64,000 bases of DNA from the NCBI RefSeq assembly GCF_000970285.1, contig NZ_CP009516.1, positions 310,001-374,000 of the forward strand. The letters are read 5' to 3'. Below are positions 10,197 to 20,230 of this stretch, piece by piece; position 1 is the stretch's first letter; each line of letters opens with the position of its first letter. This DNA comes from Methanosarcina horonobensis HB-1 = JCM 15518. Its GTDB lineage: Archaea; Halobacteriota; Methanosarcinia; Methanosarcinales; Methanosarcinaceae. Below the pieces are notes generated by a model. That model was not told the origin of the DNA. It ran no database searches and saw only the letters and a program-made list of their open reading frames with translations. A program made the position numbers and the translations under genes.

Positions 10197-10640
10197 ATGC
10201 AGCCTATTACACCACACCTCGATTTTGAACAGCTTGAACAGAAGCTAAGGGAATTTTTCTCCAAAGTTGAGAATATTTCATTGGCTTATCTTTTCGGTTC
10301 AACCGTCCGGGGAGAATCTAATTGCCTGAGTGACATAGATATTGCTGTGCTTTTTGATGATACTCTTTTACAAAAGGAAGCTTTTGACCTTCAGCTGGAA
10401 TTAATAAGTGAACTTACAGGTCTTCTTAAAACGAACAATGTAGACCTTGTGGTACTCAATGATTCTCCTCTCCTTTTGACATATAACATCATACGTAACG
10501 GGATCATTTTAAAGTCCGATGAACCTTTAAGGGTAAAGTTTGAGACAAAAATCATGTCCAGGTACCTGGACGAGCGGTACCATATTGAAAGGCATGCAAA
10601 AGAGAGCCTGAGAAGGATAGCAGAGAGCGGGTTTCGATGA
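10197..10640 (+). CDS. mntA: MntA-type nucleotidyltransferase antitoxin
   Basis: 147 residues with the minimal nucleotidyltransferase signature: GSTVRGESNCLSDID fits GS-x10-DxD exactly (about residues 38-52), and a third acidic residue follows in NVDLVVLND. In MntA/HepT pairs the antitoxin neutralises the HEPN toxin, in studied cases by AMPylating a tyrosine near the toxin active site. The stop codon overlaps the start of the next gene by four bases (ATGA at 10637), so translation is coupled. The start ATG 10197 has no strong ribosome-binding site. The C-terminal helix is basic (RHAKESLRRIAESGFR). Confidence 0.92.
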   Translation: MQPITPHLDFEQLEQKLREFFSKVENISLAYLFGSTVRGESNCLSDIDIAVLFDDTLLQKEAFDLQLELISELTGLLKTNNVDLVVLNDSPLLLTYNIIRNGIILKSDEPLRVKFETKIMSRYLDERYHIERHAKESLRRIAESGFR

Positions 10641-11059
10641 TAAAAGAGATCAACTTCAAGCTGGAACAACTTGGGGAGTATATCAGCACCCTCAGAGAAT
10701 ATCAATCGTGTGATATTGAGGAGATAAGGAACAATCGTACTTTGAGGGGAGCGATTGAAAGGTATATAGAGATCTCTCTTGCCTGCATGATTGATATCTG
10801 TGAGATGATCATTTCTAGCGAGAAATTGAGGCGTCCAGACACTTACAGAGAAGTTATTCTGGTACTTGGCCAGCACGATGTTCTCCCAAAAGAATTTACC
10901 AAGAAGCTGGCACCTGCAGCCGGTTTTCGAAATGTGCTTGTCCACATGTATGCAGATATTGACCTTGAAAAGCTTTATTCACATCTCCAAAATGACATTG
11001 ACGATCTGGAACTTTTTGCTGAATACATTGCAAAGTACTTGGTTTCTAAGTACGAATAA
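10637..11059 (+). CDS. hepT: HepT-type HEPN toxin
   Basis: 140 residues, all-helical, of the DUF86/HepT family. The catalytic HEPN ribonuclease motif R-x4-H-x-Y is intact as RNVLVHMY near residues 103-110, so the toxin is probably active. The tyrosine of that motif is the residue AMPylated by MntA in characterised systems. It overlaps mntA by four bases and is the second gene of the pair. The system may protect against phage or stabilise the locus. An intergenic repeat follows immediately downstream. No membrane segment. Confidence 0.92.
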   Translation: MIKEINFKLEQLGEYISTLREYQSCDIEEIRNNRTLRGAIERYIEISLACMIDICEMIISSEKLRRPDTYREVILVLGQHDVLPKEFTKKLAPAAGFRNVLVHMYADIDLEKLYSHLQNDIDDLELFAEYIAKYLVSKYE

Positions 11060-16096: not shown

Positions 16097-19000
16097 TCAG
16101 TGAGTTTTTATATACTCGATCATGCGCGGAGTAAGCAACGGAATCAACTCAGGCAGCATATTGGGCATGAGATTTTCCATGGCTTTTGGCATGAGATCAG
16201 GGAGCTGTTCTTTCATGTAGTCCGGCATGGGGACTCTTCTTTCCACGGCTTTGAGCATATCAGGCATGACTTTTGGCATGACAGAAGGCATGAGTCTTGG
16301 CATCATAACCGGCATCATGGGTTTCATCATGGCATCCATGCCTGGTACGTACTTGACCATCTTCATCATTGCTTGAAGAGGTGCTGGCATGGCAGCCATC
16401 ATCTGGGGCATGAGTTCAACCATGAGATCGGTCATCTTTTCGGGCTGCATGAGGTCGATCATCTTTTCGAAAGGCACCCAGGATTGCAGCGTATAGTTTG
16501 TCGAGTCCGGGATGTCGTAGCCGAGACTTCTCGCTACCAGGGCACCGAGGTCCTGAGCCTGTATGTCAAGGTTATTTTCCTGCGCTGCCACCCTGAACTG
16601 GAAGATGCAGCATGGGCAAAGAGCTACAATAACATCAGCATTCACATCAGCAGCTTCCTGAAGTCTCATGTTCCCCAGCCTGTAAGCAACCGGAGGCTCG
16701 GCAATCAGGCTGACAACGGAGCCGCAGCAGTGCGCTCTTTCTCTATTATATTCCAGTTCTCTGAATTTTATGCCGGGTATGGCTTTAAGGAGCTCTCTCG
16801 GAGGCTCGTATACTTTACCTCCTGCTCTTCCCAGGTGGCAGGAGTCGTGCCAGGCGACCACTTTGTCAAGGGGCTGCTTAAACTTCGGTTTAAGGACGTC
16901 AAGTCGTTCCACAAGGACTTCGGAATAGTGCTTTGTCTCAAGCCCGTATTCGATCCCGAGCTTTTCTGCCCACTGGGGATAGACTGTGTGCCACATGAGC
17001 CAGCATGCAGGGCAGGAAGTAATGACCGTTTTTACGCCTTTCTTTTTCATGTTTGAGACGTTCATTCTCATTATCTTCTCAAAAACGTCCCACTTCCCGG
17101 CAACAAGCATGGGGATTCCACAGCAGGCTTCTTTGTCAAAGAGCCCCGTGAATTCGATACCTGCATCGTCGAGCATGCGGACTGCCCCTACAGCAACGTC
17201 ATTTTCCACAAAGGATGCTGTGCAGCCTGCAAAGTAAGCGTACTCGGCTTCATCCTTCATTTTTGCCCGGATATCTTCTGGTATCCATTTATCCCGGTCT
17301 TTCCTGTAATTTGCCCATATATTCCGCTCTTTCAGGAGGCTTGCAGCCATGATCTCAAAGGGCGGGAAAGTCATCTTTTTCTCTTCCCCAATCAGTTTAT
17401 CCCGCATGGTCATCCAGGCATGTTCGATTGGCATATCCAGTTCGCACCTGGAATCGCACATCTGGCAGGTGGTACAGCCAAGGAAAGTGTTTGTCTGCCT
17501 CTGGTCAAGTTTTTCCCTGCCTGCCAGGTACTCTTTAATAAAGAACCATTTCCCTCTTGGAGACTGGGATTCCCAGCCCCTGCCGTAGTACTGGTCGCAC
17601 TCGCTCACACAGTACCCGCACTGGGAACAGGAATAAGCAAGTTCGGCAACCTCTGCGGGTATTTCCTTTTCATTTTTGAAGCTGACTTCTCCTATCCCGG
17701 ACATGTTCCCTACAAGCCTGCCCATGGGTTCGAAAGAAGATCCAAGAGACACGGCTGTGTTCAGAAGCCCTTTCCCTTCCAGGGTTTCAGGGTTCATAAT
17801 CCCGTTGGGGTCGTTTTCTTTTCTCAAAGCTTCGATTTCTGCAAGCCTGTCTCCGAAGACACTCTTCTTCTTCGAGGCGAAGAACAGGCCTGAAGAGTAA
17901 GCTCTACCTACATTTTCTTCTGCAATTTTAAGGATACTCAGGGACAGTGCAAAGGCCGTATTGAAAAGTACGGAACGCTCGGAATGGCGCATGAAACAGA
18001 GAAGTACAACGTTTCCGTCGCTGATAACCATCCCTTCGGTGAGCACCGGAAGTTTGATCTTCTTTTTAATCTCTTCAAATACACTGTCCATGTTTTCAAG
18101 CGGCACGAGTATTTCTGCAGGAATGAAGGAGGGACCAAGTCTTTTTACCTTCATGGATTTGAACCATTCTTCGGTCTCGTGCTTTGCAATCTCCTCAGGG
18201 AGAACCGTACCGCCAGCACTTTCGATTGCTTCTCTCAAGCCGGACACGTCTCTCGAAGCAGGATACATGAAGGTGCAGACATAAGCAACAGGCAGCACAG
18301 GTCTGTCTTTATCCACAACTTCTCCGTAGTGGAGTTTCTGAGGTGATTTGTTTTTCATGTCCGCCCATTCGGGATTCAGGAAGGAGATTGACCAGAGAGG
18401 AATGTTCTTTGCCCTGATTGTTTCAACTGCTTTTTTCATAGCTGAAGCATCAGGGAAACTTGCAGAAACAGCATCTCTATTTTCGAGTTTTTGGACGTTC
18501 AGGGTGATTTCGGTTATTATTCCCGTTGTTCCCATTGTCCCTATCAGCTTCTTGAGTTCGGGACCTGAAAATTCCTTTATTTTTCCGTTTGGGAGAACGA
18601 CCCGGACTTTTTCCATGCTCTCGTAGCCCCAGCCGAACTCATAACTCCCGTATCCGGCTCCGCTCTGGGCAAGCCAGCCTCCTACGGTTGAGGAAGGGGC
18701 GCTCGATGGAAGTGCCCTTACAGAAAGGCCCTCTTCTTTCAGCTTTCTTTCCAGTTTTTCCCAGATAATCCCGCTCTGCACAACTGCTTTCTGTCCTTCC
18801 GGGTCGATGCTGATTACTTTATTAAGCAGGGTCACGTCGGCAACAATTCCTCCTTTTGTAGGGATTACTCCGCCATACCCTGAGGAGGCTCCTGCACGTG
18901 GAACTACAGGAATTTTGTGCCTGTTTGCAAATTCCAGAAGCTTTATTACATCTTCTTCTGTACGAACCTTTACAACGGCTGCCGGATCTGCTTTTCCTAT

Positions 19001-19147
19001 CACTTTTTTAACAAGTGGAGGGAGGGCTCCTATATCGTGATTATAATAGTGGCGTTCGCGTTTGTCAAGATTGACATATTCCCCGAAGAGTTTGGAGAGT
19101 TCTGTTTTCTGGACTTCTGAAAGCTCGGATACGCTTTTTGCTGTCAT
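16097..19147 (-). CDS. FAD-linked oxidase / Fe-S / CCG-domain oxidoreductase with Met-rich tail
   Basis: 1016 residues fusing the parts of a GlcD/GlcF or D-lactate dehydrogenase-type enzyme. Residues about 50-190: PP-loop FAD-binding domain (VVPRAGASSGYGG near 87). About 220-480: FAD-oxidase C-terminal domain. About 505-570: two four-cysteine sets, CSQCGYCVSEC and CTTCQMCDSRC, for two [4Fe-4S] clusters. About 640-880: two CCG domains (ACCGIPM near 672, HDSCHLGR near 769, HCCGSV near 809), which bind non-cubane clusters in heterodisulfide reductase-like proteins. About 893-1016: an unusual tail with MMPxxMP-like runs, very rich in Met and Pro. It likely oxidises a 2-hydroxyacid such as lactate and passes electrons on. 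It is the last gene after an HTH regulator and a membrane ferredoxin; the tail may dock to the membrane partner (inference). The substrate is not settled. Confidence 0.88.
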   Translation of the reverse strand: MTAKSVSELSEVQKTELSKLFGEYVNLDKRERHYYNHDIGALPPLVKKVIGKADPAAVVKVRTEEDVIKLLEFANRHKIPVVPRAGASSGYGGVIPTKGGIVADVTLLNKVISIDPEGQKAVVQSGIIWEKLERKLKEEGLSVRALPSSAPSSTVGGWLAQSGAGYGSYEFGWGYESMEKVRVVLPNGKIKEFSGPELKKLIGTMGTTGIITEITLNVQKLENRDAVSASFPDASAMKKAVETIRAKNIPLWSISFLNPEWADMKNKSPQKLHYGEVVDKDRPVLPVAYVCTFMYPASRDVSGLREAIESAGGTVLPEEIAKHETEEWFKSMKVKRLGPSFIPAEILVPLENMDSVFEEIKKKIKLPVLTEGMVISDGNVVLLCFMRHSERSVLFNTAFALSLSILKIAEENVGRAYSSGLFFASKKKSVFGDRLAEIEALRKENDPNGIMNPETLEGKGLLNTAVSLGSSFEPMGRLVGNMSGIGEVSFKNEKEIPAEVAELAYSCSQCGYCVSECDQYYGRGWESQSPRGKWFFIKEYLAGREKLDQRQTNTFLGCTTCQMCDSRCELDMPIEHAWMTMRDKLIGEEKKMTFPPFEIMAASLLKERNIWANYRKDRDKWIPEDIRAKMKDEAEYAYFAGCTASFVENDVAVGAVRMLDDAGIEFTGLFDKEACCGIPMLVAGKWDVFEKIMRMNVSNMKKKGVKTVITSCPACWLMWHTVYPQWAEKLGIEYGLETKHYSEVLVERLDVLKPKFKQPLDKVVAWHDSCHLGRAGGKVYEPPRELLKAIPGIKFRELEYNRERAHCCGSVVSLIAEPPVAYRLGNMRLQEAADVNADVIVALCPCCIFQFRVAAQENNLDIQAQDLGALVARSLGYDIPDSTNYTLQSWVPFEKMIDLMQPEKMTDLMVELMPQMMAAMPAPLQAMMKMVKYVPGMDAMMKPMMPVMMPRLMPSVMPKVMPDMLKAVERRVPMPDYMKEQLPDLMPKAMENLMPNMLPELIPLLTPRMIEYIKTH

Positions 19148-19250: not shown

Positions 19251-19868
19251 TTAGAAGTGAAGTGCATCTTTAGGACAGGCACTAACACAGCGCCCGCACT
19301 TGATACAGTCGGGCTTTGTCTCGTTCTGGCACACCTTAAGCTGCATCGGACAGACTTTTTCGCATTTCTTACAGCTGATGCATTTGTCTTTTTCAAGTTT
19401 CAGCTGGTACCTTTTTCCTCCGAGCAGGCGCTGGGCTGTGCCCATAGGACAGAAAGAACACCAGGTTCTCGGGCTCAGGAAACTTCCGAGAAGGACTGCA
19501 ATTGAGGTGGTCACAAGGCACATCATTACAAAGATCATGCCTATCTTTTCGAATGTGTTAAGGCTTCCGAAAGTACTTGCTACCCTGTAGCCCATAAAGC
19601 CCATCAGCAGGAAAAAGATTGGCAGACGGACCCAGAGACTCCTGAGTGCTTCGGGTATTTTTCTTTTCTTTGAGATTTTGCTGACCCAGAAGTCAACAAG
19701 GCTTCCTCTCGGGCAGAGATTTCCGCAGAACCATCTTCCTCTGAAAGGACTGATCAGGAAGATTGCGGCAAACACAAGCAGCATAAAGTACCCGAGTGCA
19801 GGATACCAGAGACCCCCGATAGAGACGATCAGTACAAGAATTCCCAGGTAGGGAGTGATTTTGAGCAT
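19251..19868 (-). CDS. Membrane-bound 4Fe-4S ferredoxin (NapH/CcoG-like)
   Basis: 205 residues from ATG 19868, chosen because GGAGG lies nine bases ahead and the start follows the regulator stop by five bases; an upstream in-frame start at 19892 would overlap the regulator. About four hydrophobic helices fill residues 1-150, with cysteine motifs between them (FCGNLCPRGSL, WCSFCPMGTAQ) typical of NapH-like proteins. The C-terminus has two ferredoxin motifs, CISCKKCEKVCP and CIKCGRCVSACP, for two [4Fe-4S] clusters. It probably carries electrons between the large FAD/Fe-S protein encoded 100 bp downstream and the membrane carrier pool. The direction of flow is unknown. Confidence 0.85.
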   Translation of the reverse strand: MLKITPYLGILVLIVSIGGLWYPALGYFMLLVFAAIFLISPFRGRWFCGNLCPRGSLVDFWVSKISKKRKIPEALRSLWVRLPIFFLLMGFMGYRVASTFGSLNTFEKIGMIFVMMCLVTTSIAVLLGSFLSPRTWCSFCPMGTAQRLLGGKRYQLKLEKDKCISCKKCEKVCPMQLKVCQNETKPDCIKCGRCVSACPKDALHF

Positions 19869-19873
19869 TTTAA

Positions 19874-20230
19874 TTAACCTCCGTTTTCCCATTTTTCAAG
19901 TTCCTGCCCGAGTCTGTCAGCCCAGGACTGGACGATTTTTTGAATGACATTTCTAATCTGGTTTTTTGAATGGATTTTGTAAATGAAGACATAGCCCCCT
20001 CCGTCAAGGTTCTGCTGCGATCTCTGAAGAATTTCTTTTTCATGCAGCTTTTTTACGGAGCGCTGGACTGTAGAAATATCTAGGCTCAGAGATTTTGAGA
20101 GGGCATCCGTATCAATCCATTTTTCAGGTTCATTTAAAAAATGCCTCATGACATTCAGATCAGCTTTTGTAAGATTGAGGGCGCACTTGATTACGTCCTC
20201 TATTTTGAATTCCTTGCAGGCGAAGTCCAT
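19874..20230 (-). CDS. Winged-helix transcriptional regulator (MarR/TrmB-like)
   Basis: 118 residues. Residues about 20-95 form a winged helix (LTKADLNVMRHFLNEPEKW, then ALSKSLSLDISTVQRSVKKL as the recognition region, then a GGGYVFIYKI wing). A C-terminal amphipathic helix (IRNVIQKIVQSWADRLGQEL) probably dimerises it. It is the first gene of an operon with the membrane ferredoxin and the FAD/Fe-S oxidoreductase. The promoter just upstream carries ACTGTA-type inverted repeats, so autoregulation of the operon is likely (inference). No ligand-binding or cysteine-based redox switch domain is visible apart from Cys5 and Cys16. Confidence 0.82.
   Translation of the reverse strand: MDFACKEFKIEDVIKCALNLTKADLNVMRHFLNEPEKWIDTDALSKSLSLDISTVQRSVKKLHEKEILQRSQQNLDGGGYVFIYKIHSKNQIRNVIQKIVQSWADRLGQELEKWENGG

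Follow-up and report, generated by a model that had tools for sequence, protein, structure and literature searches.

In Methanosarcina horonobensis HB-1, a 1016-aa FAD/4Fe-4S/CCG fusion oxidoreductase ends in a tail of about 125 residues that contains 29 Met and 19-20 Pro and has a four-residue (xxMP) period. The tail is conserved, has a single origin, goes together with an altered CPCC motif in the last CCG domain and belongs to no known family. The enzymes that carry this unnamed domain, which often evolves more slowly than the catalytic part, form a subfamily that is widespread among methanogens and anaerobic bacteria. Tentatively, we read the domain as Met-lined and hydrophobic and as docking the enzyme at its electron exit, where it might meet the membrane, a lipoquinone or methanophenazine, or a hydrophobic partner. 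The gene lies in a 64,000-nucleotide stretch of DNA, the whole of which is called the window here (Table 1).

Table 1. Features of the tail-bearing gene and its upstream neighbors, in window coordinates
Feature	Residues	Position	Strand	Basis
Whole gene: FAD/4Fe-4S/CCG fusion oxidoreductase, 1016 aa, Met/Pro-rich tail		16097..19147	(-)	ORF and Pfam
Met/Pro-rich tail, with stop codon	890-1016	16097..16480	(-)	ORF, composition, alignments
FAD-binding domain	55-193	18569..18985	(-)	Pfam PF01565 (FAD_binding_4)
Two [4Fe-4S] motifs	506-572	17432..17632	(-)	Pfam PF13534 (Fer4_17); eight invariant Cys
First CCG motif cysteines	C642, C675, C676, C712, C715	17003..17224	(-)	Invariant, 57 proteins
Second CCG domain	764-852	16592..16858	(-)	Pfam PF02754
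CPCC, marks the tail-bearing clade	844-847	16607..16618	(-)	47/47 vs 0/10 tail-less
Short tail helices (predicted)	884-933	16349..16498	(-)	AlphaFold2 model
Long helix (predicted)	937-971	16235..16339	(-)	Full-length and tail-only models
Core of the four-residue (xxMP) repeat, MMPVMMPRLMPSVMPKVMP	944-962	16262..16318	(-)	Alignment and lag statistics
Long helix (predicted); shorter broken helices in the tail-only model	976-1015	16103..16222	(-)	Models
NapH-like membrane protein, Fer4_5 and 4Fe-4S motifs, upstream, possible partner		19251..19892	(-)	Profiles, locus comparison
Small helix-turn-helix (DnaD_N/MarR-like) gene, possible regulator		19874..20230	(-)	Profiles, locus comparison

A Met/Pro-rich tail follows the second CCG domain

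The protein contains the FAD_binding_4 fold (Pfam, E 7e-36), a weak Pfam match to FAD-oxidase_C and two complete CCG motifs, all ten cysteines of which are invariant in 57 proteins, and the tail is directly C-terminal to the second, HdrD-like CCG domain. A preliminary description of this DNA had noted a Met/Pro-rich tail after a complete catalytic body. The tail is real: of the 122 residues from 895 to 1016, 29 are Met and 19 are Pro, against a Met share of 3.1% for the body (at the body rate, the Met excess has a binomial P of ~8e-18), and the bias is kept in 43 diverse tails with 21-33 Met and 15-22 Pro apiece. The body does have FAD-binding, two [4Fe-4S] and two CCG motifs, but GHxGDGNLH and EHG are missing from it.

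The residues are spaced regularly, as in the segment AMMKPMMPVMMPRLMP (residues 939-954). Pro pairs occur eight times each at lags 4, 8 and 12 against about 2.5-2.8 expected (P<=0.001), and Met pairs at lag 4 occur 16 times against 6.5 expected, a count reached in 0 of 3000 shuffles. Tail length is fixed at 134-147 residues. Charges are balanced (14 K/R vs 13 D/E), mean hydropathy is just above zero, and a hydropathy scan found no transmembrane-like 19-residue stretch anywhere in the tail.

The tail marks one clade with an altered CCG motif

A search with the body only returned two groups, tail-bearing proteins of 1013-1118 aa (whole frames) and tail-less proteins of about 880-970 aa. The tail-less FAD/Fe-S/CCG paralogs, from the same bacteria, resemble the query in domain order, are about 35% identical to it and likewise have no GlcD metal motif, but they end without any tail; several genomes carry both kinds. 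In a FastTree phylogeny of 57 bodies, which included only ten tail-less sequences, all of one phylum, the 47 tail-bearing proteins formed one clade with support 1.0. Residues 844-847 read C-P-C-C in 47/47 tail-bearing proteins and C-A-G-C in 10/10 tail-less ones. Since the tail-bearing proteins are one clade, the simplest history would be a single gain of the tail, or a single loss in the sister group, beside the altered last CCG motif.

In one archaeon (L082, 4923-8047), the fusion comes as two slightly overlapping ORFs, one FAD/4Fe-4S and the other CCG-plus-tail; because the tail remains on the CCG ORF, it may serve that half. In bacterium G425 (L191, 3090-6217), two overlapping frames that join near residue 533 encode the protein, which may reflect a frameshift, an assembly error or a true split.

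A scan of the genome collection gave 42 loci, nearly all from Methanosarcinaceae plus one from a Eubacteriales MAG (50% identity), and in most of them the match extends to the final residue. Searching with the tail alone, as the preliminary description had proposed, recovered 44 of the 295 genomes in the archaeal phylum. These comprise nearly all of the genomes in the family of M. horonobensis, two from its order and five from more distant families, one of these a weak match (E 2e-4). With a tail profile, 36 of the 398 genomes in the bacterial phylum of the Eubacteriales MAG were positive as well. The refuting case named in the preliminary description, a known domain common in GlcD/GlcF fusions, is half true: the tail is widely shared, but in one fusion clade only and under no domain name. 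No tail without this body type was found among the loci fetched, no second copy was found in the M. horonobensis genome, and none was found on viral contigs or plasmids. Genome G296, the source of L016, has besides its full-length gene a 165-aa open frame holding an extra copy of the tail (L094, contig 116, 2286-2681), which possibly reflects a contig end or contamination.

Three Methanosarcina genomes gave no match and one has a broken remnant only, so the gene is dispensable in Methanosarcina. This remnant, short and with several in-frame stops but still showing the tail, lies between the NapH-like and thermosome genes in G125 (L085, 6211-6540). Judging from these genomes, the gene decays in some lineages.

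The tail is under strong purifying selection

Among distant homologs, the tail is mostly better conserved than the body. Identity was 51% in the body and 67-69% in the tail for L083/L084, 46% and 64% for L080, 49% and 60% for L036, and 45% and 58% for L081; the exceptions are L079 (47% body, 41% tail) and the split L082 (45% and 37%). For three Methanosarcina pairs, dN/dS was 0.015-0.031 in the tail and 0.040-0.050 in the body; for two Methanolobus pairs, tail and body were about equal (0.05), and one further pair was saturated. The tail is therefore under strong purifying selection, and its higher conservation together with dN/dS values of 0.015-0.05 argues for a specific function. A domain that often evolves more slowly than the catalytic part must be central to function.

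In 43 tail representatives chosen below 85% identity, W890, P921, P946, P962, M990 and P995 are invariant, many other tail Pro are kept in 41-42 of the 43, and the alignment is almost gap-free across two domains of life. The biased composition and short-period repeats are what a low-complexity or disordered extension without a defined role would show, but the dN/dS values, the near absence of gaps over such distances and the fixed length in effect already refute this reading.

Conservation also bears on what the Met residues might do. Met fills 70% of the cells in Met-dominated columns and L/I/V/F 24%, rarely anything else, and this exchange indicates that hydrophobicity is the property kept. 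Besides contact with the membrane face, the preliminary description had offered two roles for such tails, copper binding and oxidant scavenging, and both have lost ground. Binding of copper or another soft metal would fit the many MxxM and MxxxM spacings among the 29 Met, but with nearly a quarter of Met-column cells taken by aliphatic or aromatic residues, His and Cys almost absent from the 43 representatives and no copper gene among the neighbors examined, we consider it very improbable. We think it just as improbable that the tail is a sacrificial Met sink that takes up oxidants in the vicinity of the flavin and clusters. Such a sink could suit an oxidant-sensitive enzyme of obligate anaerobes, and much Met may lie at the surface, but a scavenger needs Met content only, whereas here individual Pro and Met positions are kept along with a predicted helical fold, a constraint beyond that expected of a scavenger. 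Membrane or hydrophobic docking stays the best of the three.

The tail is predicted to be an all-helical domain without known relatives

AlphaFold2 modeling of the full-length protein (37 sequences) gave a mean pLDDT of 78.6 and a pTM of 0.74, with pLDDT of about 79-92 for the tail beyond residue 890. Helices are predicted at 884-899, 902-911, 913-919, 924-933, 937-971 and 976-1015, and the tail would thus be a folded all-helical domain with two helices of 35-40 residues. In a tail-only model (pLDDT 70.8, pTM 0.53), the long helix 937-971 recurs and the last part is uncertain. The long helices have low hydrophobic moments (0.17 and 0.07). With Pro at every fourth position of a long helix, a stripe of its backbone carbonyls would remain unpaired.

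These features also suit the main rival to docking, in which the tail is a structural or oligomerization domain whose helices pack on the CCG domain or a second subunit and hold the electron-transfer centers together, with no contact to membrane or carrier. A packed core would account for the strongly conserved Pro and Met positions and for the fixed length, helices that are confident in the full-length model and less so alone suggest a domain leaning on the body, and the long helices are poorly amphipathic. We nevertheless hold this reading to be somewhat unlikely, as the closely related tail-less paralogs do without the tail and a soluble packing domain seldom needs 24% Met.

The tail-only model had no Foldseek match at E 10 in the PDB or among viral models (BFVD), which, given the confidence of that model, is only moderate evidence for a new fold. 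The earlier statement that no named domain resembles the tail agrees with the searches of Pfam, NCBIfam, PHROGs, PDB sequences and PDB folds, none of which gave a credible match. DUF577 (E 0.0017 in 2 of 15 members) and Alpha-MPP (0.017, partial segment) were rejected as no more than many searches yield. Among the papers searched, there was no account of such a Met/Pro tail.

The enzyme does not belong to the classical lactate or glycolate dehydrogenases

The body model matched the folds of D-lactate dehydrogenases and alkyl-DHAP synthase. Like the GlcD/GlcF and D-lactate dehydrogenase type (VAO/PCMH with a CCG partner), the query has FAD_binding_4, [4Fe-4S] and two CCG motifs, but it has an additional C-terminal helical domain and CPCC, and the catalytic metal motifs GHxGDGNxH and EHG are absent from it and its relatives. 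The GlcD paralog of the same genome (L047) carries GHIGDGNLH and SEHGVG. NCBIfam glcD gave the query 102 bits against a cut-off of 568. A GlcD-type D-2-hydroxyacid (lactate/glycolate) dehydrogenase was therefore rejected: the flavin fold is there and the metal motifs are not. The subfamily is easily misannotated as such a dehydrogenase, and the tail and CPCC together offer a simple diagnostic for re-annotation.

Identity with the M. acetivorans LDH MA4631 was likewise rejected, on gene context. That LDH, tied to O2 detoxification, is listed beside the archaeosine tRNA ribosyltransferase MA4632 (PMC11619418). The GlcD paralog, at 32 kb of G000, adjoins a 670-aa ORF that by eye fits archaeosine tRNA ribosyltransferase, and the window gene has no such neighbor.

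In sequence, the CCG half resembles the heterodisulfide reductase subunits HdrD and HdrB, which also have two complete CCG motifs, and the query's Fe-S half shares 34% identity with an HdrD-like paralog encoded in the same genome. The query differs in being a flavoprotein fusion and in its CPCC and Met/Pro tail.

The tail may dock the electron exit to a hydrophobic partner

The tail may explain how HdrD-like enzymes that look soluble gain access to electron carriers in the membrane. The all-helical domain would have been acquired once in one FAD/4Fe-4S/CCG fusion subfamily and retained since. It follows the second CCG domain, presumably the end at which electrons leave, and its Met-, Leu- and Pro-lined helices could form a flexible hydrophobic docking surface. 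This surface might bring the CCG end to the membrane surface and a lipophilic carrier (methanophenazine or menaquinone), or to a membrane electron-transfer partner. The docking, the membrane contact, the kind of acceptor and the way in which electrons flow are all inferred. Docking at the electron exit is suggested by the place of the tail behind the distal CCG domain, by its hydrophobic yet non-transmembrane character, by the NapH-like neighbor in two genera and by an excess of menaquinone makers among tail-bearing bacteria. Against docking speak the slight mean hydropathy, the balanced charges, the absence of any transmembrane-like stretch, the low helix moments, the restriction of the NapH-like neighbor to two genera and the nine tail-bearing bacterial genomes with neither menaquinone marker.

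The neighborhood evidence is as follows. A helix-turn-helix gene, the NapH-like gene and then the tail gene are found in this order in the Methanosarcina loci whose upstream sequence is long enough and in the five Methanococcoides loci; at the exceptions L007 and L041, the helix-turn-helix gene alone was found, and some contigs end too close. The NapH-like neighbor is conserved in these two genera only, and among the loci compared there is no conserved operon across phyla, the neighbors elsewhere being unrelated. For menaquinone, the markers PF02621 (futalosine pathway) and PF16582 (MenD) were present in 26/35 tail-bearing and 7/20 tail-less bacterial genomes (P 0.009, kinship ignored), or in 25/35 tail-bearing genomes after removal of one weak match (P 0.012, kinship ignored); 9 of the 35 tail-bearing genomes have neither marker.

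Two known systems serve as working analogs for such docking. SdhE is a CCG protein without transmembrane helices that is thought to be membrane-bound via amphipathic helices (PMC2680327). In 8-methylmenaquinol:fumarate reductase, SdhE has two CCG motifs and no predicted transmembrane helix, and it gave a weak profile match to query residues 744-864, but it is a separate subunit and lacks a Met/Pro tail of this kind. The second analogy is with Met-rich helical hands, which grip hydrophobic helices (PMC8010706). The hydrophobic-binding domains SRP54 M and Sgt2-C/STI1 are Met-rich, helical and flexible like the tail; the tail differs in having no sequence or fold match to them, in its attachment to a redox enzyme and in its period-4 xxMP repeat.

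Rather than lipid, the tail might dock one particular hydrophobic protein or helix, as SRP54 M and STI1 domains do. Helices that are Met-rich, punctuated by Pro and flexible alone, the analogy with the helical hands (PMC8010706) and the NapH-like gene in two genera all point this way. We judge it quite improbable, however, as no gene is linked to the tail across phyla and the SRP54 M and STI1 families are absent even among its Pfam matches at E 10.

Extending the docking reading, helices with proline at every fourth position and adjacent Met may represent a new fold type, a soft hydrophobic port between a cytosolic flavin/Fe-S enzyme and lipophilic carriers that goes with the altered CPCC noncubane site in archaea and bacteria. 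We regard this extension as unlikely, if conceivable.

Two further observations were made. In the Eubacteriales MAG, a DUF6951 gene directly follows the tail-bearing gene (L036, 8068-8427). In the window itself, away from the gene, overlapping ORFs of 147 and 140 aa (10197-11059) look by eye like a nucleotidyltransferase/HEPN (MNT-HEPN) pair.
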